Part shown: piece by piece, positions 4,205 through 62,600 of the stretch
Position numbering within the stretch: position 1 is the stretch's first letter
How the letters are laid out: every line of letters starts with the position of its first letter
Source: Defluviitaleaceae bacterium
Lineage (GTDB): Bacteria; Bacillota; Clostridia; Lachnospirales; WQUN01
Direction of reading: 5' to 3'
DNA length: 64,000 nucleotides
NCBI GenBank assembly: GCA_009777845.1
Contig: WRLD01000012.1
Coordinates: forward strand, 1 to 64,000
The notes under the pieces: generated by a model
Seen by the model: only the letters and a program-made list of their open reading frames with translations
Database searches by the model: none
Told to the model about the DNA's origin: nothing
Program-made: the position numbers and the translations under genes

Positions 4205-4435
4205 GATTTGGCGGATTTTAAAGGCATGGAACGCGGATTTTCGCGGATTTGGCGGATTTTCGCGGATTCCCACGAACGAATCCGCGTAATCCGTGTAAAT
4301 CCGTAAAATCCGCGTTCTATCTATATATTCTTGTAATGGCTAAATTAAAGACATAGAACGCAGACTACACGGAAAAAATCCGCGTAAATCCGTTAAATCC
4401 GTGTAAATCCGCGTTCTATCACCGTTTACTAAATA
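4205..4435. repeat. Family A GCGGATTT/AATCCGC imperfect repeat array
   Basis: Rightward GCGGATTT units (4213-4267) face leftward AATCCGC units (4278-4318), so the block can fold as one long imperfect hairpin starting GAACGCGG and ending CCGCGTTC. A second, one-sided set follows at 4350-4422. Related arrays fill most gaps in this window. No gene is supported in the stretch. No yybP-ykoY-type riboswitch is apparent before mntP. Confidence 0.85.
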
Positions 4436-6283: not shown

Positions 6284-7828
6284 CTAAGAGCTTAATTCCA
6301 ACAACACCAACGACTCCTGCACCAGCTTCTCAGAAATTTCCATATTGTCACTGACGGTAGACTGATTTTCGGACACTACCTTGGAAATGGTCGCCATGTT
6401 GTTTACCAAAACATCTACGCTTTCCGCTTGGTTTTGGGACGCGTCGGCGATAGACAGCACGCCCTTACTGCTTGCGATTGCTATCTGAATGGCTTCCTTT
6501 AGGCTTTGGGCGGTTTCTATGGCGGCGTTTCGGCTTTCGGCTATGGCTTGCACAGTGCGGTCTATTAGCTCGGCGGTGTTTTTTGTCGCGTCGGTACTGC
6601 GGGAAGCGAGGTTGCGTACTTCCTCTGCCACTACGGCAAAGCCCTTGCCCGCTTCGCCCGCGCGCGCGGCTTCTACCGCGGCGTTAAGTGCGAGCAGATT
6701 CGTCTGAAACGCTATATTGTCGATTGTTTTTATTATGGTATTTATTTCGCTTGCGATACGGTTTATATTGTCCATAGAGCCGAGAAGCCCCGTCATTCTT
6801 GCGTTTGCGTCCTCAAACATGCCCACCGCCTTGGTGGACTGCTCGCCCGACAGGGTCGTCACCTTGATTGTGTCCTCGATATGCCCAGAAATTTCCTCGA
6901 TGGAACTCTGCAAGCTGTCAAGCGCGTAGGACTGCTCGTCCGCGCCCTGCGATAGCTTTTCGGACACGGATTTTAGCTGCGGCACCATGTCGGAAATTGA
7001 CACGGCGGAGCGTTTTATCACGTCCAAAAGCTGCGCTTGGCTTTCTGTCATTTTTTGGCTTTCGTTCATTTGCGTTTGTACTTCCGATAGAAGATTCTCG
7101 TTTTCCTGCGACGATTGCTTTATTTTTGCTATTAACTGCTCCTGCTCCTGTCGCATGGTTTGCGATTCGAGCATTTTTTCGTTAAGCTCCTCCATGCGCC
7201 TTTTGTCGTCCTCCTCCATAGATTTCATGGCGACAATCATGCGCTCTTGCTCTTTTTCATGCGCTTCACTTTCGGCAACCTGTTGGCGTACTGTTTCCAA
7301 AAGCCCCTCTGTTTCCTTGGTTTTTGCGTTGCTTTCGTCAATAAGGTCTGTGTTCCAGCCAGTGATTTTATAGGAAAGCGCGATTGCGATATTAAATACT
7401 AATAGATTCACAATTAGCGGTTGCAAGGTGTATCTTTCCACTAAATACGAAAAATGTGTCGCCACATATACAAAGTACAAAATGTTTGTGATTATGCACT
7501 GCAAAACGAGTATCTTCTTATTATAATAAATGAGCGACATAATAGCCAAAAGCAAAAACAGCGAAAAGCTCTCAGTAACCGTACCCTTTATAAACGGCAC
7601 AATAAACAGCAAAACGACCTCGCATAGGCTTATTATGTAAATGCGAGTGACAATGGAAAAAATACCCTTCAGCCCGACACAGAGAAAAAGCGTAACAGCT
7701 AAAGTGGCGAGCAACGCAACCAATTCGACATAATTACCTGCCAAGAGATTGCTAAGCGAAAAAACCGACACGATTGAAACAATGGCAATGAGGTTGTTTT
7801 TGAATAAGGCTTCGTATTTGGATTTCAT
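6284..7828 (-). CDS. Methyl-accepting chemotaxis-type transducer with polytopic membrane N-terminus
   Basis: About 514 residues. The N-terminal 180 residues form roughly six hydrophobic helices with no large extracellular sensor domain. Then comes a long Glu/Gln/Lys-rich coiled coil (about 185-290), and a C-terminal signalling domain with the hairpin-tip region [19 protein letters not shown], followed by [13 protein letters not shown]. It should relay a membrane or intracellular signal to CheA/CheW. I chose the ATG at 7828 because AAGGGAGG lies about 9 nt upstream; the in-frame ATG at 7876 has no ribosome binding site and sits in the conserved leader. It lies directly downstream of a tRNA-Arg gene and probably shares its promoter. 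No other che gene is in the window. Confidence 0.92.
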
Positions 7829-7890
7829 TGGGTTGGCCTCCCTTGTGTTTTTGATTCGCCTTCGGCGATTTTTCATGTGCGGGTTTGCAC
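7829..7890 (-). promoter_or_regulatory. Conserved 5' leader with tandem hairpins
   Basis: Reading on the minus strand: GTGC-aaaccc-GCAC, a short A-rich spacer, TCGCC-GAA-GGCGA (7856-7868), CAAAAA, then GGGAGG. The same order recurs before the genes starting at 28864, 31635, 50381 (minus) and 61075 (minus). Function unknown; it could be an RNA regulatory site or a mobile leader repeat. Confidence 0.6.
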
Positions 7891-7909
7891 TGTCATTTGT
7901 AGTATGTAC

Positions 7910-22769: not shown

Positions 22770-22781
22770 TATTAAAAGATA

Positions 22782-22978
22782 ATGGAACGCGGATTTTCGC
22801 GGATTTAACGGATTTTCGCGGATTTTTTCTCGCTTGCATTAAAAGCTAACGTGACACTGATTTACGCAGATTTCACGGATTTAAAGGCGCACCCGAAAGA
22901 ATCCGCGAAAATCCGCCAAATCCGCGGAAATCCGCGTTCCATGCCTTTAAAATTCACTAAATCCGCGTTCCATAAATA
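22782..22978. repeat. Family A inverted array between serC and serA
   Basis: GGAACGCGGATTTTCGCGG at the left faces CCGCGGAAATCCGCGTTCC at about 22929-22950, with a partial extra copy ending at 22976. The transcript between serC and serA would fold into a long imperfect hairpin. Confidence 0.85.
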
Positions 22979-28201: not shown

Positions 28202-28795
28202 TTGAAAACCTACGGATTCAAACGCACATTTGACCTGCTCGCGGTGATTTTATCCGCGCCTATTTGGTTGCCAGTGTTTTTGCTGTTGGCATTTATTGTA
28301 AAAGCCACCTCGCGCGGCTCTGTATTTTTCCTGCAAAAACGATACGGAACAAACAAGCAATTTTTTACCATTTACAAGTTCCGTAGCATGTACACCACCG
28401 CGCCAAAGGACGTGCCAACGCATTTGTTACAAAATCCGCACGCCTTTATTACGCCAGTGGGTCGTTTTTTGCGAAAATCGAGCCTTGACGAATTGCCGCA
28501 ACTGCTTAATATATTAAAGGGTGAGCTGTCGCTAGTCGGGCCTCGCCCTGCGCTGTGGAACCAGGACGACCTAATCGCCGAGCGCGAAAAATACGGCGCG
28601 AACAGCGTACCAGTGGGGCTTACTGGCTTGGCACAAATAAGCGGACGCGACGAGCTTCCCATAGAAAAAAAGGCCGCGCTAGACGGCTTATACGCACAGA
28701 AAATCAGTTTTTTGTTGGATATAAAAATAATCCTTTTGACGTTGGCGTATTCCGTTGTTGGGCGCGGCGTGAGGGAAGGGCAGCATCGCACTTGA
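28202..28795 (+). CDS. Undecaprenyl-phosphate sugar-1-phosphate transferase (PglC-like)
   Basis: A 197-residue monotopic phosphoglycosyltransferase. An N-terminal membrane-entry helix (FDLLAVILSAPIWLPVFLLL) is followed by FRSMYTTAP, the catalytic-type motif LRKSSLDELPQLLNIL, LSLVGPRPA and VGLTGLAQISGRDELP. It should transfer a sugar-1-phosphate from the UDP-sugar made by the two genes upstream to undecaprenyl phosphate, starting a glycan repeat unit. The TTG start has AAGGAG 9 nt upstream. No glycosyltransferases or flippase follow, so the rest of the pathway is elsewhere. Confidence 0.95.
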   Translation: MKTYGFKRTFDLLAVILSAPIWLPVFLLLAFIVKATSRGSVFFLQKRYGTNKQFFTIYKFRSMYTTAPKDVPTHLLQNPHAFITPVGRFLRKSSLDELPQLLNILKGELSLVGPRPALWNQDDLIAEREKYGANSVPVGLTGLAQISGRDELPIEKKAALDGLYAQKISFLLDIKIILLTLAYSVVGRGVREGQHRT

Positions 28796-28863
28796 TAAAT
28801 CGCCGTAGGCGAGTCAAAAAAAGGGAAGGTCAGTAAGTTTTTAAAAAGGAGGGGGGCTAATAA
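28796..28863 (+). promoter_or_regulatory. Conserved 5' leader with TCGCC hairpin
   Basis: TCGCC-GTA-GGCGA at 28800-28812, followed by GTCAAAAAAAGG and, 30 nt on, AGGAGGGGGG. It begins at the end of the sugar transferase gene. It is the least conserved of the five leader copies because of the extra spacer. Confidence 0.5.
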
Positions 28864-29259
28864 ATGCTAGTAAAAAACAATTTAGACGAATTAGACACAA
28901 TTTTTAATGAGCTTGACACACTTTGCGAAAGGTTAAATATCCCCGCAGAAGCGCGGAATAACCTATGCTTGTGCATGGACGAGGTTTTTTCTAATATAGT
29001 AAAATACGCCTATGACGATGGGGGCGAGCACGAAATTCAAATTACCTTTGACTTTGAAGCCCCAAGGTTTACGATAACAATAAGCGACGGCGGCAAGCCG
29101 TTTAATCCGCTAGATGCCGAGGAGCCAGACCTTTCGCCCGATTTAATGGAACGCGAAATAGGCGGGCTAGGCCTGTTTATTGTTTCCAACATTATGGACG
29201 ATATAGAATATAGCCGTGTTGATGATACTAATAGGTTGAAGATGTTGAAAAATATATAG
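28864..29259 (+). CDS. RsbW/SpoIIAB-like anti-sigma ATP-binding protein
   Basis: A 131-residue GHKL-fold protein. The N box is CMDEVFSNIVKYAY, the G1 box ISDGGKPFNPL, and the lid/G2 region GGLGLFIVSNIMDDIEYS; all are intact, so ATP binding and serine-kinase activity on a STAS partner are expected. Family members hold a sigma factor or other effector until a dephosphorylated STAS protein displaces it. No sigma gene is adjacent. Another very similar copy is at 43268, and STAS genes are at 32769, 37121 and 37455. Confidence 0.9.
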   Translation: MLVKNNLDELDTIFNELDTLCERLNIPAEARNNLCLCMDEVFSNIVKYAYDDGGEHEIQITFDFEAPRFTITISDGGKPFNPLDAEEPDLSPDLMEREIGGLGLFIVSNIMDDIEYSRVDDTNRLKMLKNI

Positions 29260-29385
29260 GGCGTGGATTTTAAGGGCATGGAACGCGGATTTTCGCGGAT
29301 TTGGCGGATTTACGCGGATTCGTTCGAGGTTTAATACATGTAAAGGCACGGAACACGCACGAACGGCAAAATCTGCACGTTTTAT

Positions 29386-29613: not shown

Positions 29614-29761
29614 CCTGCTGTGCCACGCTCCCTCTGTGCCTCTGTGCCTCTGTGTGAAAATCTTTTTGATAAATAATGAACGTAGGTAAAGCGTATAACT
29701 TCCATTCTCTAGTTAAAAGATTTTTTCACACAGAGGCACAGAGGGAACGAGGCACAGCAGA
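29614..29761. repeat. Family C inverted-repeat element
   Basis: About 148 bp with terminal inverted repeats CTGCTGTGCC..CCTCTGTGCCTCTGTG and the reverse complement ..GAGGCACAGCAG, around a conserved AT-rich core TTTTTGATAAATAATGAACG. Other copies are at 32468, 40636 and 61469. It is MITE-like in structure, but no transposase is associated. Confidence 0.8.
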
Positions 29762-29929: not shown

Positions 29930-31582
29930 ATGAAAAACCAAAGACCAAACCAAAGAACACCTCGCACACTACTTGCATTATTACTAACGCTACTGCTAAT
30001 TCTACCCTCAATTTCCGCTTGCACAAAAGACAGAACGCAAGACCAAGCACAAGCACAAAACCAAGTACAAACCCAAGTACAAACCCAAGCACAAGGCAAT
30101 TCCCAAACACAAGACCAAGCCCAACCCCAAACCCCACAGCTCCAAACCCAAGCCCCCCAAACCCCACCGAAATACATATTCATGTTTATCGGCGACGGCA
30201 TGGGCTTACCACAAGTAACCGCCTACGCAAACTTTATGGGTACAATAGACTACGATTTCACAGGTACACAAAAAGACCCAACCCCCGAAAATCCGCCTAT
30301 TCCGCTGTTTCCGTCCTTTGTACACTTCCCTGCCACCGGCTTGACCGCCACGCAGGACGCGTCTAAGTTTATTACCGATTCGGCTTCGGCGGCCACGGCG
30401 ATTGCCTCGGGCGTTAAGGCACTTGACGGCTCGCTTGGCGTAGACCCCTTCGGCGAGCCGTATCCGTCGATTGCCACAATATTGCAGGAACAAAAGGGCT
30501 ATAAAATAGGCATTATCACAAGCGTGTCGCTCGACCACGCCACGCCCGCCGCCTATTATGCGCATAGAATGACAAGGCGGAATTATTATGATATAGCCCT
30601 AGACCTTGTGGCGAGCGGCTTCGATTATTTCGGCGGCGGCGGCTTGAAACAGCCCTACGGCGAGGACGGCGCGCCAAGCATATGGCAGCTCGCAGAGGAA
30701 GCGGGCTACACCGTGGCAGACACCTATGAAGCAATCGCGGCACTAACCGCCGATAGCGGCAAAATTATTGCTATTTCCCCCGAGCTGGACGACGATTTCG
30801 GCGATGCGGCTCTGCCGTATGCCATCGACCAGTACGGCGACCTAAAGCTCGCCGACTTTGTACGCACTGGCATAGACGTATTAACCAACGACACAGGCTT
30901 TTTTATGCTCGTAGAGGGCGGCAAAATCGACTGGGCTTGCCACGCCAATGACGCGGCGACCGCTATTTGGGAAATACGCGAGCTAGACGCGGCTGTGGCT
31001 GTAGCCTTAGAATTTCAAGAAAAATACCCCGAGGAAACACTAATAATAGTCACAGGCGACCACGAAACAGGCGGCTTGTCCAACGGCTACAATTTAACCG
31101 CCTACGACACTTTTCTGTCAGTATTAGCCAACCAGCATGTATCGCTTACGCGTTTCTCGTCCTATTATGTCGCAGAATGGCGTGAAGCTCAAACGCCCTT
31201 CGAGCAAGCAATGTGGGACGTAGAGGGGCTATATGGGCTTACCTTGCCTACGAATGAAAGCCGCTATGCCGAGCCAGCGATTTTGCTTACCGAGCGAGAA
31301 GTAGAAAAGCTACGCGCCGCCTACGAATTAAGTATGCTGCCCTATGCCGAGCGCGACAACCAATCGGAGGCATATTTGGCAGAATATGCCGCAAACCAGT
31401 ACGAGCCGTTTCAGCTTGCCATTACACGCATTTTGGCAAATAGGGCGGGGCTTGGGTGGTCTACTACTTCACACTCCGCGCTTCCTGTGCCTGTGTACGC
31501 TACAGGCGTAGGCGCAGACCATTTTGCAGGGTTTTATGATAATACGGATATATTTCATAAAATAATGAAGTTGACAGAGTAA
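29930..31582 (+). CDS. Lipoprotein alkaline phosphatase
   Basis: A 550-residue PhoA-superfamily enzyme releasing phosphate from monoesters outside the cell. A signal peptide with lipobox SISAC ends at about residue 27. Then comes a Gln/Thr/Pro-rich linker (residues 32-80). Catalytic elements: metal Asp in IGDGMGLPQ, nucleophile Ser in ITDSASAATA, EGGKIDWACHANDA and the His pair region TGDHETGGLS. AAAGGAG precedes the ATG. The low-complexity linker probably spaces the enzyme from the membrane. No Pho-box-like regulation was identified. Confidence 0.95.
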   Translation: MKNQRPNQRTPRTLLALLLTLLLILPSISACTKDRTQDQAQAQNQVQTQVQTQAQGNSQTQDQAQPQTPQLQTQAPQTPPKYIFMFIGDGMGLPQVTAYANFMGTIDYDFTGTQKDPTPENPPIPLFPSFVHFPATGLTATQDASKFITDSASAATAIASGVKALDGSLGVDPFGEPYPSIATILQEQKGYKIGIITSVSLDHATPAAYYAHRMTRRNYYDIALDLVASGFDYFGGGGLKQPYGEDGAPSIWQLAEEAGYTVADTYEAIAALTADSGKIIAISPELDDDFGDAALPYAIDQYGDLKLADFVRTGIDVLTNDTGFFMLVEGGKIDWACHANDAATAIWEIRELDAAVAVALEFQEKYPEETLIIVTGDHETGGLSNGYNLTAYDTFLSVLANQHVSLTRFSSYYVAEWREAQTPFEQAMWDVEGLYGLTLPTNESRYAEPAILLTEREVEKLRAAYELSMLPYAERDNQSEAYLAEYAANQYEPFQLAITRILANRAGLGWSTTSHSALPVPVYATGVGADHFAGFYDNTDIFHKIMKLTE

Positions 31583-31634
31583 ATTCGCACATTAAAAATC
31601 GCCGAAGGCGAGCCAAAAAAATGGAGGAATAGAA
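31583..31634 (+). promoter_or_regulatory. Conserved 5' leader with TCGCC hairpin
   Basis: TTCGCACATTAAAAA, then TCGCC-GAA-GGCGA (31599-31611), a CAAAAAAA run and GGAGG before the ATG. The hairpin core and spacing match the copy before the VWA lipoprotein gene at 61075. Confidence 0.6.
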
Positions 31635-32336
31635 ATGAATTACAAAATAACTCAAGGCACGGCGTTTCCGCTGGTAGAAATTACCCTTTCGCAGGGAGAG
31701 GAAATACAAATAGAACGCGGAAGCATGGTACACCATAGCGGCGATATTACGCTAGAGGGCAAGATGAACAGCGGCGGCGGCGGAGGGCTTGGCGGGCTTG
31801 TAAAGGCTGTCGGGCGTTCGCTTGTTAGCGGCGAGAGCTTTTTTATCACTCGCGCAACGGGTCAACGCGATGGCGCGGTTATTGCTATAGCCCCTGCGTT
31901 GCCTGGCGCGGTGCGTGAGCTAAGGCTAGGCGAAAGCCAGTGGCGTATTCGTGACGGCGCGTTTTTGGCGTGTGACGGAGCGGTGTCCTACGAAATAAAG
32001 CGGCAGTCCATAGGCAAGGCCCTATTTGGCGGCACTGGCGGCTTCTTTATCATGGAATCGCGCGGTACTGGCAGTATGCTAGTGAACAGCTACGGCGATT
32101 TGCAGGAAATAGAGCTGGACGGCACGCGAAAATATATAGTAGACAATACCCACGTAGTCGCGTGGAGTGCTTCGTTGGATTACGATATTCGGGTAGCCTC
32201 GGGTACATTTGGCTTTACTACAGGCGAGGGGCTAGTAAACGAATTTCACGGCAAGGGTACAATTCTGATTCAGACTAGAAATATACAGTCATTGGCGACA
32301 TCAATGATTCCGTATTTGCCGAAAAGTGGGAGCTAG
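31635..32336 (+). CDS. AIM24/TIGR00266 family protein
   Basis: A 233-residue beta-rich protein of the TIGR00266/AIM24 family: IQIERGSMVHHSGDITLEGK near the start, a glycine-rich stretch (NSGGGGGLGGLVKAVGRSL) and SFFITRATG, then GTGSMLVNSYGD and a C-terminal GEGLVNEFHGKGTILIQTRN. Biochemical role not established; bacterial members are cytoplasmic or membrane-associated. Length is normal. It is preceded by the shared leader element and followed by a repeat-filled gap. Confidence 0.9.
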   Translation: MNYKITQGTAFPLVEITLSQGEEIQIERGSMVHHSGDITLEGKMNSGGGGGLGGLVKAVGRSLVSGESFFITRATGQRDGAVIAIAPALPGAVRELRLGESQWRIRDGAFLACDGAVSYEIKRQSIGKALFGGTGGFFIMESRGTGSMLVNSYGDLQEIELDGTRKYIVDNTHVVAWSASLDYDIRVASGTFGFTTGEGLVNEFHGKGTILIQTRNIQSLATSMIPYLPKSGS

Positions 32337-32768
32337 TGCGAAAAAGAGGAACACGGATTTAAAAGATTATGGAACGCGGATTTACGCGGATTTAACGGAT
32401 TTTCGCGGATTCGTTCGGACGTGTTTTTAAATCCGTGTAATTAAAAACTAACGTACTGCTCGTATTTCTGCTGTGCCTCTCGCCCTCTGTGCCTCTGTGC
32501 CTCTGTGTGAAAAAATCTTTTTGACAAATAAAAAACCTAGGTAAAGTGTAAAGCCTCGTTCTCTAGTTTAAAAGATTTTTTCACACAGTAGTTCGCACAG
32601 AGGCACAAGCAGAGGGAACGTGGCATAGCAGGCAATGAAACGCAGATTTAACGGATTTTAAAAAACACCCTCGAAAAAAATCCGCGAAAATCCGCCAAAT
32701 CCGCGAAAATCCGCGTTCCATGCCTTTAAAACTCCGTGTCCCATGCTTTAAAGAAATGAGGTAATTCC
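32337..32768. repeat. Repeat-filled gap: families A and C
   Basis: A family A half-array (32365-32412), a family C element (32468-32631) and inverted family A units (32640-32720) leading into GGAATTCC-like sequence before the next gene. No gene is supported. Confidence 0.8.
32468..32631. repeat. Family C inverted-repeat element
   Basis: About 164 bp, with ends CTGCTGTGCC and GGCATAGCAG. Core TTTTTGACAAATAAAAAACC. The right arm carries an extra GTAGTTCG insertion compared with the copy at 61469. Confidence 0.8.
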
Positions 32769-40635: not shown

Positions 40636-40800
40636 CTGCTGTGCCTCTCGCCCTCTGCTTTGTGCCTCTGTGCGAACTCCTGTGTGAAAACCTTTTTGAC
40701 AAATAATAAACTTAGGTAAAGTGTAGAGCTTCTTTATTTAGGTTAAAAGATTTTCACACAGGAGTTCGCACAGAGGCACAGAGGGAGCGAGGCAGGTCAG
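40636..40800. repeat. Family C inverted-repeat element
   Basis: About 165 bp; the left end is CTGCTGTGCC, and both arms carry the extra GGAGTTCGCACAGAGG variant or its complement. Matching changes on both arms preserve pairing. Confidence 0.8.
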
Positions 40801-40997
40801 AGGTACGGACGTAAAAAAGTGTGTTATAACACGGATTTAACGGATTTACGCAGATTTCACGGATTTTGTCCACGCAAATGACTAAACGGCGATATATTTT
40901 ACCACAAGCCAATCCGCCAAATCCGCGAAAATCCGTTAAATCCGTGTTCAATAAATCATTTGTTAAACCACGAATTAAAGGAACTTGCAGGTTTTTT

Positions 40998-41108
40998 GTA
41001 GGGGACGGATTTATCCGTCCCGAGGTACACACGTTCGTCAATTCGAGGAGGGCAACGTCCATTAAAGCAGAACGAGGTAATCTCGGGACGGATAAATCCG
41101 TCCCCTAC
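40998..41108. repeat. Family B palindromic element
   Basis: 111 bp standard copy, flanked left by GCAGGTTTTTT as in the 61.6-62.6 kb cluster. Confidence 0.9.
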
Positions 41109-41180
41109 AACCACCCTGCGACAAACGCACGAAGCGAAAATCCGCGTTCCAATATTCTTACTAAATAAGGAGTTTTAACC

Positions 41181-45991: not shown

Positions 45992-46607
45992 GGTTGCGGT
46001 TAATCGTGGGGGGAGGTTTGGGTCGGCGTGTGGTGTTGTCTGGGAAAACGACTTAGGCAATACTTTACTGCTTGCTTGGTGGGAATGTCGCCTCGAAGCC
46101 TTAGGGAGGTTGTTCCTGTTCTTTGAGTGGTTGGTGGTGGGGGTGTTGCTACGGCAAACGCATGAAGCTAAAATGTGTGAATCAAACACGAATTTGGCGG
46201 ATTTAAGAGATTCAAGGGATTCACACGGATTTAACGGATTTTCACGGATTTTATCTAGCGTGTCTTTTTATCCGCGTAATCCGTGTAAACCCGTTAAATC
46301 CGTGTTTGATAGCCTTTTGTAGGGGACGGATTTATCCGTCCCGAGGTACGCACGTTCGTCAATTCGGGGACGGGCAACGTCCATTAAAGCAGAGCGAGGT
46401 AATCTCGGGACGGATAAATCCGTCCCCTACATTTAGGCGGATTCACGCAGATTTATGCGGATTCTTGCACGAACGAATCCGCATAAATCCGTGAAAATCC
46501 GCTGAATCCGTGTTTAATTCACACATTTCGGCTTCGTGCGTTTGTCGTGTAGCTTGACTGACTATAAGTCGCCGATAATTCGCCGAAGCTACCAAGCCGC
46601 TTTTGTA
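45992..46607. repeat. Repeat-filled gap: families E, D, A, B, A
   Basis: A family E hairpin (46033-46075), family D (46078-46105), a family A inverted array (46180-46310), a family B element (46319-46430) and a second family A array (46434-46520). The final part resembles the spacer at 15040 (CACATTT..GCTTCGTGCGTTTGTCGTG). No gene is supported. Confidence 0.8.
46319..46430. repeat. Family B palindromic element
   Basis: 112 bp standard copy, with core GTACGCACGTTCGTCAATTC. Confidence 0.9.
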
Positions 46608-49454: not shown

Positions 49455-50381
49455 TTATCTTACAGGAAAATCAAAAAAAGTGTCGGGATATGGCTCGTCG
49501 TCAAGGGTATAATGCCACCATTCCTCGTCATAAATCCTAAAGCCTGCGTCCACCATTGCATTCTTGAGAATTAGGCGGTTGCTTGCTTGTTCCTCGGTGA
49601 TAAGGTCGGTTTCGTGATGTGAAGCAAGCCCAAAAAAGTCGAACGGCGTACCCATGTCCACCTCTTTGCCCGTCAACAGCTCAACAAGGGTCAAGTCGAT
49701 TGTGCTTCCCCGCGAATGTCCCGAACGCTCGGCTATGTAGCCATCGGGGATAATGCGGTCTTTGGCTATATCTGGATAAAAATATTCCTTTGTGGCAACA
49801 TCGTCTGGGTCTGCCGCCCAACGCACAAAATGGTCAACCGCGCCCTGCGGCCTGTACGTGTCAAACACCTTGATTGCGTAGCCCTGCGCCTGTAGCTCTG
49901 CGTTGACTTGTTTTAGTGCCTCGGCGGCGGGTTCGGTGATAATGGCGCGCGGCGCGAGATAGTCGTCAACACGCGCCCCAACAAAGTTATACGTGCTGAA
50001 GTAGCGGATTTCGAGGATAGCGTCGGGGACTGCATCTGTTACGTAAACGAAGCCTTCTGGTAGGGGGGTGGGGGTGGTTTGTTGTGATTGTTCTGGTTGC
50101 GTTGTTTGTGTTGTTTGTTCTGTTTGTCCTGTTTGTGTGGTTTGTCCTGTTTGTTCCGTTTGTTCTGATTGTTCAGATTGCGTTGTTTGTTCTGTTTGTG
50201 CCGCTTGTTCTGATTGCGTTGTTTGTTCCGTTTGTACCGCTTGTTCTGTTTGTGGTGATTGTGCCACTTGCGACACTTGTTCCGTTTGTGGCGTACAGCT
50301 TGCGAATAACAAGAGCATAACAGCTAAGGCAGCCGTTAGCTTGATACCCATTGTTACAATGCTTCTTTTTTGTTTACTCAT
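49455..50381 (-). CDS. Lipoprotein D-Ala-D-Ala dipeptidase (VanX/DdpX-like)
   Basis: About 308 residues. Signal peptide and lipobox LLFASC (about residues 24-29), then a long Gln/Thr/Glu-repeat linker (about 35-95), then an M15D dipeptidase with SGHSRGSTIDLT (zinc His/Asp) and EEWWHYTLDDE (catalytic Glu and zinc His). It should hydrolyse D-Ala-D-Ala outside the membrane. No vanH or vanA is nearby, so wall-dipeptide recycling is more likely than glycopeptide resistance. I chose the ATG at 50381 because GCAGGAGG lies upstream; an in-frame ATG at 50471 is inside the shared leader. Confidence 0.92.
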   Translation of the reverse strand: MSKQKRSIVTMGIKLTAALAVMLLLFASCTPQTEQVSQVAQSPQTEQAVQTEQTTQSEQAAQTEQTTQSEQSEQTEQTGQTTQTGQTEQTTQTTQPEQSQQTTPTPLPEGFVYVTDAVPDAILEIRYFSTYNFVGARVDDYLAPRAIITEPAAEALKQVNAELQAQGYAIKVFDTYRPQGAVDHFVRWAADPDDVATKEYFYPDIAKDRIIPDGYIAERSGHSRGSTIDLTLVELLTGKEVDMGTPFDFFGLASHHETDLITEEQASNRLILKNAMVDAGFRIYDEEWWHYTLDDEPYPDTFFDFPVR

Positions 50382-50471
50382 TTTGTTCCTCCTGCTTTTT
50401 TGATTTTTTGATTCGCGCTTGGCGATGATTCGCCCTCGGCGATTTTTCTTTGCATGTGTGACTTTACACAC
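50382..50471 (-). promoter_or_regulatory. Conserved 5' leader with doubled TCGCC-type hairpin
   Basis: On the minus strand: GTGTG-taaagt-CACAC, AAAAA, TCGCC-GAG-GGCGA (50430-50442), a second TCGCC-AAG-CGCGA copy (50413-50425), AAAAAATCAAAAAAG, then AGGAGG. The duplicated hairpin is unique to this copy. Confidence 0.6.
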
Positions 50472-50599
50472 TGTACACTATCGTTATCTTCCACACTGTA
50501 CTGTACCATATTGTAATGTATTGTAGCAAGCCCTGTATAAAAATAAACGCGACAAACACATGGACGGCAAAAGCGTGTAATTTCTTCGGCTTAAAAAGG

Positions 50600-58876: not shown

Positions 58877-61075
58877 TCACCTTCCCCTATCATACCCCTC
58901 CACCATCTCCAAAAACCCACGCCGATGTCCATGCTCGTCACTTCCTATACTATCATTCGCCATAGAAATAACAAGCGGAATTGTCGCTGTTCTATTGTGT
59001 TCCGAGCTACGCAGTATATGGCCGAACGCCGCCACTGCCGCCGCAAAGGTAAATTCGCTTGTGTTGCTTGTCAAAATTCGTTCCGTGCCTGCGGGGACTT
59101 CCACCAGACGGCTTGTCGCCTCGCCTGGGTTATGGTAGCGAATACGCACGTTAAACAAATCGCCGACCGCCCTTTCGCGTAGCTTTAGCTCGAACATGAT
59201 TACGAGGTCAGAGCCTACGCCCACCTCGCCCGCGTCGCGGCTGTCGTCGTCAAAATGGCGGTTGTCCATGGTGCGGTTTTCGTAGCCGATTAGGCGGTAG
59301 GATTCCACCCTGTCGGCGTTAAACACTATTTGCGAGCGTACTTCTTCGGCAATCACAAACAAATTTGACGTTAATTCTTCCACAAATATTTTTCGGGCGG
59401 CACGCAAATTGTCAATGTAATGATACGCTCCATTTCCGTTTCGCGCAACTGTTTCCATTGTCGAGCTAGTGTAATTTCCTACGCCAACGCCCAAAATTGT
59501 CATGTGAATGCCCTTGCCGCGCTGCTCGTTCATCATGCGCTCCAGCTGCTCCACCGAGGACACGCCCACGTTAAAATCGCCGTCCGTGGCAAGAATTATG
59601 CGGTTATTCATTTCGCTGTTAAAATTCTTGTTGGCAAGCTCGTACGCCTTTGTAATGCCCGGGCCGCCCGCTGTGCTTCCATTTGCTTCCAAGGAATTGA
59701 TAGCGTTCATTATTTTTTCATATTCGTTGCCGCGAACGGAATCAAGCAAAACCTCCGCGCTTCCTGCGTACGTAACCACGGAAACAATATCACGCGCGTT
59801 TAGGGTTTCCACCAAAACGCCAAACGCTTCCTTTAAAAGAGGCAGTCTGTTGGCAGGCGACATAGAGCCTGAGGTGTCAATCAAAAACGTAAGATTGTTG
59901 CCAGGCAGCTCGTCGCGGCTTATGTCCTGCGCCTTTACCCGCACAAAGGCAAGGTGTCTGTCCGCGTTAAACGGCGACCGCCCAACCTCTGTATACACCG
60001 CGAACGGCGAGCCTGTAGCCTGCAAAGGGGTATCGTAAGTAAAATAGTTAAGCATTTCCGCCACGCGAACAGCATCAGACGGCGGCCGCGAGCCGCTACT
60101 GATGTACCGCGAAATCGTGCCGTACGAAGCCGTGTCAATCTGTAGCGTAAACGAAACGGCGGTTTCCTCCGCGGTAGAAACAACCGCATTTTCTACAATG
60201 GGAATGTAGCGTTCGGTGTTGTGGAAAAATTGCTCTTGTTCCCTGTTGTGGTAGGGCGGTGCTTCCATTATGCCGAAGTCGGCGCGTGAGGCGTAGTCGT
60301 AGGAGAACTCCAATTCAATTGACGGTGCGGAGGGTGCGGCAGGGGCAGGGGGTGCCATTAGTATGGGGGATTCGCCGTCTGCTTGGTCTGGTGGGGGTGA
60401 CATGGGTATATATGAATCACCTTGTGGTGGGGCTTCCATGGGAACGACATCAGAAGCGGAGGACGGATATGATGTGGGTGCGGGTGTAGGCATGGGGGAG
60501 GGTGTGGCGGTAGTGTAGGACGGTGTGGTAGCGGTGTTGGGGGAAAGGCTAGGCTCGCGGCTAGAGGAGGTCATTGTACCGTTGGTTTCGGCTCTTGTTA
60601 CAATGCCTGCACTCTCTATACCAGTTTCGGTTACGGTTTCAGTTGTGGTTGTGGTGTCGGTTGTAGTTGTAGTTGTAGTTTTGGGTTCGGTTTCATCTTC
60701 GGGCAAGGGGCGTATACATATTTCGAGGTCATCGTTATCAAGTATGTTATTGTCGGTTTCGCTGTCCATGGGTATGATGTTGCTTATTTCGTTGTACGCG
60801 GTTTCGTTGCCGTCCTCTATAGCTAGGGCTAACGGCATTTCATTGAGTTCAACCTCGCCAACAGCAAGCGAGGGTTCAGAGGTCGAGGCTTGCCCCTGTC
60901 CGCCAGATAAATCCCCACTCGGAGCTACAGCCTCGCCGCTACTTTCTGTTTGCATACTAGATTGACCAACAGCGCCCTGCGGCTCTTGTGTAGTTTCATT
61001 TTGGCTACTACATGCCCCAAACGGCACTAATAGCACAAAAAGCAGCATTACAAAATACATTCTTGTCGCTTTCAT
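58877..61075 (-). CDS. VWA-domain lipoprotein (YfbK-like)
   Basis: A 732-residue protein. Signal peptide and lipobox PFGAC at about residue 22, then a long low-complexity region rich in Thr, Pro, Ser and Glu (about 25-250). A YfbK-type N-terminal domain (LQIDTASYGTISRYI, about 320-365) is followed by a VWA domain with an intact MIDAS (FLIDTSGSMSP, a Thr in NGSTAGGPG and LATDGDFNVG) and a C-terminal domain that ends normally (ILRSSEHNRTATIPLV). It is expected to bind a metal-dependent protein ligand at the cell surface. AGGAGG lies upstream of the ATG. Preceded by the shared leader element. Confidence 0.92.
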   Translation of the reverse strand: MKATRMYFVMLLFVLLVPFGACSSQNETTQEPQGAVGQSSMQTESSGEAVAPSGDLSGGQGQASTSEPSLAVGEVELNEMPLALAIEDGNETAYNEISNIIPMDSETDNNILDNDDLEICIRPLPEDETEPKTTTTTTTDTTTTTETVTETGIESAGIVTRAETNGTMTSSSREPSLSPNTATTPSYTTATPSPMPTPAPTSYPSSASDVVPMEAPPQGDSYIPMSPPPDQADGESPILMAPPAPAAPSAPSIELEFSYDYASRADFGIMEAPPYHNREQEQFFHNTERYIPIVENAVVSTAEETAVSFTLQIDTASYGTISRYISSGSRPPSDAVRVAEMLNYFTYDTPLQATGSPFAVYTEVGRSPFNADRHLAFVRVKAQDISRDELPGNNLTFLIDTSGSMSPANRLPLLKEAFGVLVETLNARDIVSVVTYAGSAEVLLDSVRGNEYEKIMNAINSLEANGSTAGGPGITKAYELANKNFNSEMNNRIILATDGDFNVGVSSVEQLERMMNEQRGKGIHMTILGVGVGNYTSSTMETVARNGNGAYHYIDNLRAARKIFVEELTSNLFVIAEEVRSQIVFNADRVESYRLIGYENRTMDNRHFDDDSRDAGEVGVGSDLVIMFELKLRERAVGDLFNVRIRYHNPGEATSRLVEVPAGTERILTSNTSEFTFAAAVAAFGHILRSSEHNRTATIPLVISMANDSIGSDEHGHRRGFLEMVEGYDRGR

Positions 61076-61131
61076 AATTTTCCTCCTGTTTTTAGCTCGC
61101 CCTCGGCGATTTTTAATGTGCAGTTTTGCAC
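61076..61131 (-). promoter_or_regulatory. Conserved 5' leader with tandem hairpins (best copy)
   Basis: On the minus strand: GTGC-aaaact-GCAC (61118-61131), ATTAAAAA, TCGCC-GAG-GGCGA (61097-61109), GCTAAAAACA, then GGAGG 6 nt before the ATG. It is nearly identical in order and spacing to the copies at 7829 and 31583. Confidence 0.65.
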
Positions 61132-61199
61132 GACTTTAGTGCTTCACACATATAAACCGTAAAGGGGAGGGAAACATTACAGGTGTAATTAAAAAAAGT

Positions 61200-61460
61200 T
61201 GGAACGCAGGTTTTAAAGGCACGGCACGCGGATTTACGCGGATTTAACGGATTTTCGCGGATTCGTTCTCGCTTTTATTAAAAATTAACGGAACTCGGAT
61301 TACGTGGATTTTTATTTTCACGGATTTTAAAGGCAATTGAACGCGGATTTCGCGGATTTTGTCCGCGTAAACTACTAAACGGCGATATATTTTCTCGCGA
61401 GCCAATCCGCACAATCCGCGTAAATCCGTTAAATCCGTGTTATAACACACTTTTTTACGT
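61200..61460. repeat. Family A arrays
   Basis: Two nested half-arrays (61212-61262 and 61300-61350) and an inverted return set (61403-61445, ending GTTAAATCCGTGTTATAAC). The phrase AACGGCGATATATTTT also occurs in the 40.9 kb array. Confidence 0.8.
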
Positions 61461-61468
61461 CCGTACTT

Positions 61469-61622
61469 CTGCTGTGCCTCTCGCCCTCTGTGCCTCTGTG
61501 CCTCTGTGCCTCTGTGTGAAAATCTTTTTGACAAATAAAAAAACTTAGGTAAAGTGTAAAGCCTCGTTCTCTAGTTTAAAAGAATTTTCACACAGAGGCA
61601 CAGAGGGAGCGTGGCACAGCAG
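61469..61622. repeat. Family C inverted-repeat element
   Basis: About 154 bp. Left end CTGCTGTGCC with three GCCTCTGTG units, core TTTTTGACAAATAAAAAAAC, right end GAGGGAGCGTGGCACAGCAG. This is the cleanest copy. Confidence 0.8.
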
Positions 61623-61676
61623 GCATTGAACACGGATTTAAATATTGCGTTTGTTGTGGGGATTTGCAGGTTTTTT

Positions 61677-62600
61677 GTAGGGGACGGATTTATCCGTCCC
61701 GAGATACGCACGTTCTACAATTCGGGGCAGGTAACGTCCATTAACGCAGAGCGTGACAACCTCGGGACGGATAAATCCGTCCCCTACAAAAACCGTTACC
61801 GTGTCCGTTGATACGCAAATTGCGTGGTTTTTTATTTACGCAGATTTTAAAGGCATAGAACGCAGATTTAAATATTGTGTTTGTTGTGGATATTTGCAGG
61901 TTTTTTGTAGGGGACGGATTTATCCGTCCCGAGGTACGCACGTTCGCCAATTCGTGGCAGATAACGCCCATTAACGCAGAGCTAGGCAACCTCGGGACGG
62001 ATAAATCCGTCCCCTACTGCGTTCGTTAATTTGGGGTGGAGTGGTGCGTGGGTAGGGTAAATGGCGGTACGAATTGTAGGGGACGGATTTATCCGTCCCG
62101 AGGTACGCACGTTCGTCAATTCGTGGCAGGTAAACGTCCATTAACGCAGAGCGTGGCAAACTCGGGACGGATAAATCCGTCCCCTACGTCCGTCACGGTA
62201 TTCATGCGTTCGTTAATTTGGAGTGGTACGTGGGTAGGGTAAATGGCGGTACGAATTGTAGGGGACGGATTTATCCGTCCCGAGGTACGCACGTTCGTCA
62301 ATTCGGGGCAGGTAACGTCCATTAACGCAGAGCGTGGTAACCTCGGGACGGATAAATCCGTCCCCTACAAAAACCGTTACAGTGTCCGTTGATACGCAAA
62401 TTGCGTGGTTTTTTATTTACGCGGATTTTAAAGGCAATGAAACGCGGATTTAAATATTGCGTTTGTTGTGGGGATTTGCAGGTTTTTTGTAGGGGACGGA
62501 TTTATCCGTCCCGACCCCTGCGCGTTCGCCAATTTGCGGCGAGTTACGTCCTGTCAATTTGGTGCGTGACAACCTCGGGACGGATAAATCCGTCCCCTAC
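61677..62600. repeat. Cluster of five family B elements
   Basis: Copies at 61677-61787, 61907-62017, 62076-62187, 62258-62368 and 62489-62600, each 111-112 bp. The spacers are also related: 61788-61906 matches 62369-62488, and 62024-62075 matches 62211-62257. The cluster therefore grew by segmental duplication of spacer plus element. It contains no supported gene. The last copy provides the stop codon of the next gene. Confidence 0.9.

Follow-up and report, generated by a model that had tools for sequence, protein, structure and literature searches.

A family of ~45-nt hairpin elements placed in sense before Shine–Dalgarno sequences in a Defluviitaleaceae genome: a candidate translational leader

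A hairpin element of ~45 nt is carried in ~75 copies by the 2.98-Mb gut-bacterial genome (G000) to which the window (the whole 64,000-nt stretch of DNA analysed; G000:C12) belongs, and it is read here, with moderate confidence, as a dispersed leader that has been repeatedly copied to sites before a Shine–Dalgarno sequence (SD) and that acts in the mRNA at translation initiation. Its copying, its strict retention in sense at ribosome-binding sites (RBSs) and the maintenance of its pairing across sister species point together to an RNA-level leader kept for an effect on translation.

Copies in the window and in the genome

The element is described by three helices: P1, a 3-bp closing helix (GRY/GYC); P2 (GTGY/GCAC); and P3 (TCGCC-NAA-GGCGA), which has A-rich flanks. 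A first-pass annotation of the window had reported five such leaders before five genes, all in sense, and these are present in the sequence, with the Pfam assignments of the genes given in Table 1. Its further statement that the hairpins keep pairing holds in full for TCGCC-N3-GGCGA, which is perfect in all five, and in part for GTGC/GCAC: P2 pairs in the copies before 7828, 61075 and, shifted, 50381, and has one pair broken in those before 31635 (GAGT...GCAC) and 28864 (GGGC...GCAC). The copy before 50381 also carries an extra imperfect TCGCC-like hairpin at 50413-50425. P3 lies 21-27 nt from the start codon in three of the window copies and 48-51 nt from it in the other two, and the copy at 28771 adjoins a pseudo-SD (GGGAAGG), the true SD lying ~30 nt further downstream. 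Two upstream ORFs, 28202-28795 and 29930-31582, end within the 28771 and 31570 copies, respectively. A loose P3 pattern gave 17 matches in the window versus 2.6 expected.

Table 1. Element copies in the window and the genes downstream of them (CM, covariance model).
Feature	Coordinates	Strand	Start codon	P3	CM match	Pfam
Element copy before VWA-domain gene	61087..61138	-	61075	61097-61109	G000:C12, 57 bits
Element copy before MCP gene	7846..7897	-	7828	7856-7868	70 bits
Element copy before HATPase_c_2 gene	28771..28822	+	28864	28800-28812	56 bits
Element copy before AIM24 gene	31570..31621	+	31635	31599-31611	72 bits
Element copy before Peptidase_M15/VanX-like gene	50420..50476	-	50381	50430-50442	42 bits
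VWA lipoprotein-like gene, downstream of 61087 copy	58877..61075	-				VWA
MCP-domain gene, downstream of 7846 copy	6284..7828	-				MCPsignal
HATPase_c_2 (anti-sigma-like) gene, downstream of 28771 copy	28864..29259	+				HATPase_c_2
AIM24 gene, downstream of 31570 copy	31635..32336	+				AIM24
Peptidase_M15 (VanX-like) gene, downstream of 50420 copy	49455..50381	-				Peptidase_M15

Several other repeats were seen in the window. A repeat array with a nine-nt period lies within the Peptidase_M15/VanX-like gene (50041-50298). Intergenic repeats of the AATCCGCGTAAATCCG type are abundant and occur in both orientations (for example, 4217-4278, 22773-22834, 29269-29330 and 61203-61254), as does an intergenic family around the palindrome GGGACGGATTTATCCGTCCC (for example, 40996-41109, 46317-46430, 61675-61860 and 62074-62187). 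An 80-nt MITE-like repeat with complementary ends (TGTGAAAAAATCTTTT...AAAAGATTTTTTCACA) is found four times (29651-29730, 32506-32585, 40681-40760 and 61514-61593).

Genome-wide, the exact core AAATCGCCGNNGGCGA is present in 54 copies versus 0 for the reversed control, and 53 of the 54 were aligned. The covariance-model search that the first-pass annotation had proposed gave ~75-80 copies, namely 76-77 with model R1 (E < 0.002, genome) and 80 with the three-helix model R2 (E <= 0.05), and matches in relatives were confined to the genus of the window (38 family genomes and 295 order genomes searched). The consensus reads GRYAGTGYAAANTCGCACATGAAAAATCGCCGAAGGCGAGYCAAAAAA, followed by an SD and then by ATG. 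Tandem copies lie directly 5' of the SD at L081, L095 and L213, while at L019, L033 and L092/L094 the element was probably copied along with its gene. At L033 (G000:C26:18265-20677), each of three small genes in a row, alike at their N-termini, has its own element copy.

Position relative to genes and ribosome-binding sites

All 73 G000 copies tested have, downstream and in sense, an SD with the start codon of an open reading frame (65 of the 73 when strictly defined), as compared with 3 of 73 RBS-proximal in an opposite-strand control (0 when strict) and 15% of random window positions (2.7% when strict). Hits equally common in random positions and orientations had been named beforehand as the outcome that would speak against a shared leader; what was found is sense orientation and RBS proximity in every copy, with none of the 73 at neutral sites such as those downstream of genes. 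Among the genome copies, the gap between the end of P3 and the start codon is mostly 19-27 nt.

In 29 of the 73 copies, an upstream ORF of 100 codons or more terminates within the element, and in 8 more its stop codon is found no further than 60 nt upstream. Several leader copies have a TATAAT-like box immediately 5' of the element, and in some copies putative -10 boxes are located 20-60 nt upstream of P3; where the TATAAT-like box is present, its place upstream implies that the element is transcribed. Based on the upstream stop codons, the tight RBS position and these 5' boxes, the element very probably belongs to the mRNA, in many cases as an intercistronic segment.

These observations bear on a DNA-level reading, by which the element would be an alternative-sigma promoter or a transcription-factor operator. 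Its support comes from GTGTAAAG...GCCGAA, which we take to be loosely like a sigma-28 promoter with the wrong spacing, and from the putative -10 boxes found in some copies. Yet the start codon follows at a tightly kept distance, paired changes preserve the pairing of the hairpin, and the TATAAT-like box is upstream of an element that would thus be transcribed; moreover, the 29 copies that contain an upstream stop codon are, for that reason, not promoters. We regard a DNA-level site as highly improbable, and a sigma-28-like promoter was rejected on its spacing, on the RBS-constrained position and on the many copies that contain the upstream stop.

A short upstream ORF (MKNRRRR...) serving as a leader peptide is suggested by the consensus CACATGAAAAATCGCCGAAGGCGA, which can be read as ATG AAA AAT CGC CGA AGG CGA, but many copies have ATA, ATT or ACG in place of ATG, and the frame is lost in sister-species copies (CACATGCTAAATGGCC). 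The leader peptide was rejected because its start codon is not conserved, and we consider it extremely improbable.

Pfam analysis of the downstream genes revealed no common function. They encode enzymes such as arginyl-tRNA synthetase (argS), alanyl-tRNA synthetase (alaS), phosphoglucose isomerase (pgi), glutamine synthetase III, DAP epimerase, EPSP synthase (aroA), germination protease (gpr) and a TypA-like GTPase (typA), together with SASP, YabP, FapA, FliS, MCP, two sigma factors, MazE-, HicB- and HsdS-like proteins and others.

RNA structure of the element

The RNAalifold consensus of the first alignment contained P3 only, and single folds added P2 and a short P1. Over 81 copies, including those of the sister species, 80% of cells pair, a count that, like the other pair counts given here, rests partly on an alignment built with a P3-fitted model. 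The covariation score was 0.140, versus 0.101 ± 0.007 for shuffled alignments (0 of 500 reach it) and at most 0.052 for slid controls. P3 cells are paired in 99% of cases; four copies show a C-G to G-C change and one copy a U-A to C-G change, and since P3 hardly varies within G000 the covariation there is weak. For P2 and P1 the paired fractions are 69% and 63%, respectively, and the first hairpin is kept in about 60-70% of copies; the middle pair of P1 is associated across copies (A-U versus G-C; Fisher p = 0.0015). P3 is the firm core, and P1 and P2 occur in many copies but are dispensable.

Predicted openness of the SD and start region was 0.56 with the element and 0.49 with the element deleted (p = 0.003), which is a small effect, and it did not differ significantly between element genes and the other genes of the window (p = 0.11). 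P3 was predicted to be paired in 89% of copies. A region slightly more open in the presence of the element is unlike the behaviour of an SD-sequestering switch, and in these folding predictions the element does not look like one. The leader had not been recognised as a known riboswitch at first pass, and Rfam agrees: the window gave tRNA only at the gathering threshold, while one copy searched with permissive filters gave scores at chance level. The post-transcriptional role that had been suggested is in turn supported by the strict sense orientation, the SD-adjacent position, the intra-operonic copies and the paired changes, all of which argue for action at the RNA level.

Spread among relatives

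Two sister Defluviitaleaceae MAGs, G006 and G004 (contig records WQRQ01 and WRGY01; isolates Co191P1bin4 and Nt197P1bin3), which, from their isolate names and a text search, appear to be among the termite-gut MAGs of PMC7024585, carry a variant of the element, with TGGCC-NAA-GGCCA or a related form, that likewise sits immediately 5' of SDs. G006 has about 20 variant copies in 1.16 Mb, in which P1 and P2 are mostly absent. The remaining genus members gave zero or single weak matches, and G003 and G005, searched de novo for a different leader, yielded nothing comparable.

When G000 genes were compared with those of G003-G006, the element was absent from the relative in 24 of 25 gene/relative comparisons, the sole shared case being aroA (EPSP synthase) in G006, where the site may be shared. 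At L022, the frame of the overlapping upstream gene continues through the element (...DIFGTNSHIQNRRRRAKKQGGFK*) where the G006 gene ends in ...FQNIIGGSQ*; at L038, a stop inside the element shortens the upstream protein (...LTRELV* versus ...LVEMGYRP*). Both are insertions, which interrupt an overlapping upstream gene at its 3' end. The 24 comparisons lacking the element and the two interrupted gene ends point to recent spread, and the element, judged from these sequences, would be an RBS-proximal RNA leader of recent spread rather than a metabolite riboswitch passed on by descent.

A vertically inherited cis-regulatory RNA for one pathway, be it a riboswitch or a ribosomal-protein-type leader, would account for conserved hairpins that precede SDs and show paired changes, and for an aroA site that may be common to G000 and G006. 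It is nevertheless strongly disfavoured, given the unrelated functions of the downstream genes, the comparisons without the element, the lack of an Rfam match and some mid-operon copies that leave no room for a switching domain. Of the two alternatives offered by the first-pass annotation, a regulon or a spreading repeat, spread is borne out by the many copies, the mostly empty orthologous sites and the confinement to one genus, whereas a regulon under a single factor gains no support from the downstream genes, which have no common function.

No Y1 transposase (PF01797; controls positive) and no RVT_1 reverse transcriptase (PF00078) were found in the genome, which is ~97% complete, so that a gene of either family may have been missed. 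IS200/IS605-derived or REP mobility was rejected on the absence of a Y1 (TnpA/RAYT) transposase from this genome, and LINE-like retroposition, which the 5' loss in some copies and the 3' A-run had suggested, on the absence of RVT_1 and of a sharp truncation point. Terminal inverted repeats and target duplications were not seen at the copies, and phages, plasmids and viral contigs gave no element match.

The main rival to a leader acting on translation is a selfish miniature element without function, which would insert in a fixed orientation 5' of A/G-rich SD-like targets, with genic copies purged and the hairpins serving mobility. It would explain the empty orthologous sites in relatives, the genus-restricted subfamilies that were each amplified on their own, the tandem copies directly before an SD, the pseudo-SD next to the 28771 copy and the presence of copies at essential genes with no obvious common function. 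Against it stand the failure to find a Y1 transposase or RVT_1 in the genome, the lack of visible terminal inverted repeats or target duplications, the lack of a phage, plasmid or viral match, and the absence of all 73 copies from neutral sites such as those 3' of genes, in which the BOX/RUP/SPRITE repeats of pneumococci are concentrated (PMC3049150). We hold the selfish element to be doubtful.

In the genome-wide scan, matches in unrelated phyla (L234, L237, L241 and L242) look like chance, ~7 chance matches being estimated in 257 Gb for a pattern this informative. The scan, of 84,980 genomes, also led via L235, L236, L239 and L240 to a separate leader RNA of ~70 nt in rumen/abomasum Clostridiales. 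It is present in 14-28 copies in each of G054, G055 and G056 (L244-L273) before the SDs of diverse genes, with some copies in tandem (L261 and L264), and it has no match in Rfam. Its 8-bp outer helix covaries strongly, with seven of the eight pairs changed on both sides, and its AAATCGCC/GGCGATTT hairpin is invariant. Like the present element, it is multi-copy, lies before SDs and combines an outer hairpin that covaries with a near-invariant AAATCGCC-NNN-GGCGA hairpin 3' of it, but it has a longer loop (30 nt) and an 8-bp P2. Run on the present element, its model recovers nothing past the shared 13-nt hairpin, so that homology of the two is at most a possibility.

Proposed action and known parallels

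If the element is a leader acting at translation initiation, the transcribed P3 and the A-rich sequence on either side of it, assisted by P2 and P1 in many copies, would form a compact unit 5' of the SD, and this unit would keep the SD single-stranded and/or bind an RNA-binding protein or the 30S subunit, by which translation would be tuned. Copies would be kept only in sense at the RBS if they are useful or tolerated only there, and the family would have been amplified separately in each species. More tentatively, the element may be a mobile translational-control module, that is, a tiny RNA that spreads into RBSs in sense and builds a regulon from unrelated, even essential, genes, with a hairpin that is pair-changed in the sister species. 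Small repeats in bacteria are commonly regarded as intergenic parasites that the host tolerates, whereas the present family occupies only sense, SD-proximal sites, at ~75 genes. Should the element alter translation, a mobile RNA part could quickly build a bacterial post-transcriptional network, for which the sister species would provide a natural comparison.

Many mRNAs with a common SD-adjacent site are also the feature of CsrA/Rsm-type regulons, in which the hallmark of CsrA is a GGA in a hairpin loop; unlike them, the present element has a hairpin loop without GGA, and its copies share far more sequence. GGA motifs are associated with CsrA (PMC4679880). The pneumococcal BOX, RUP and SPRITE repeats, judged parasitic and enriched downstream of genes, resemble the present family in being small interspersed stem-loop repeats that were amplified within a lineage and are transcribed with neighbouring genes, but every present copy tested is in sense and RBS-proximal (PMC3049150). 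The TAACTGA repeats of Beggiatoaceae, for which a translational role has been proposed, number 169 sets in one genome, mostly forward and just upstream of start codons, and precede functionally unrelated genes, some of them essential, with a patchy taxonomic spread (MacGregor 2015, PMC4679880). The present element likewise lies forward, just before the starts of unrelated and in part essential genes, and is patchy in its spread; TAACTGA, however, is a 7-nt direct repeat with no structure that in most cases stands in for the SD, whereas the present element is a 45-nt hairpin with the SD retained, with paired changes and with empty sites (PMC4679880).
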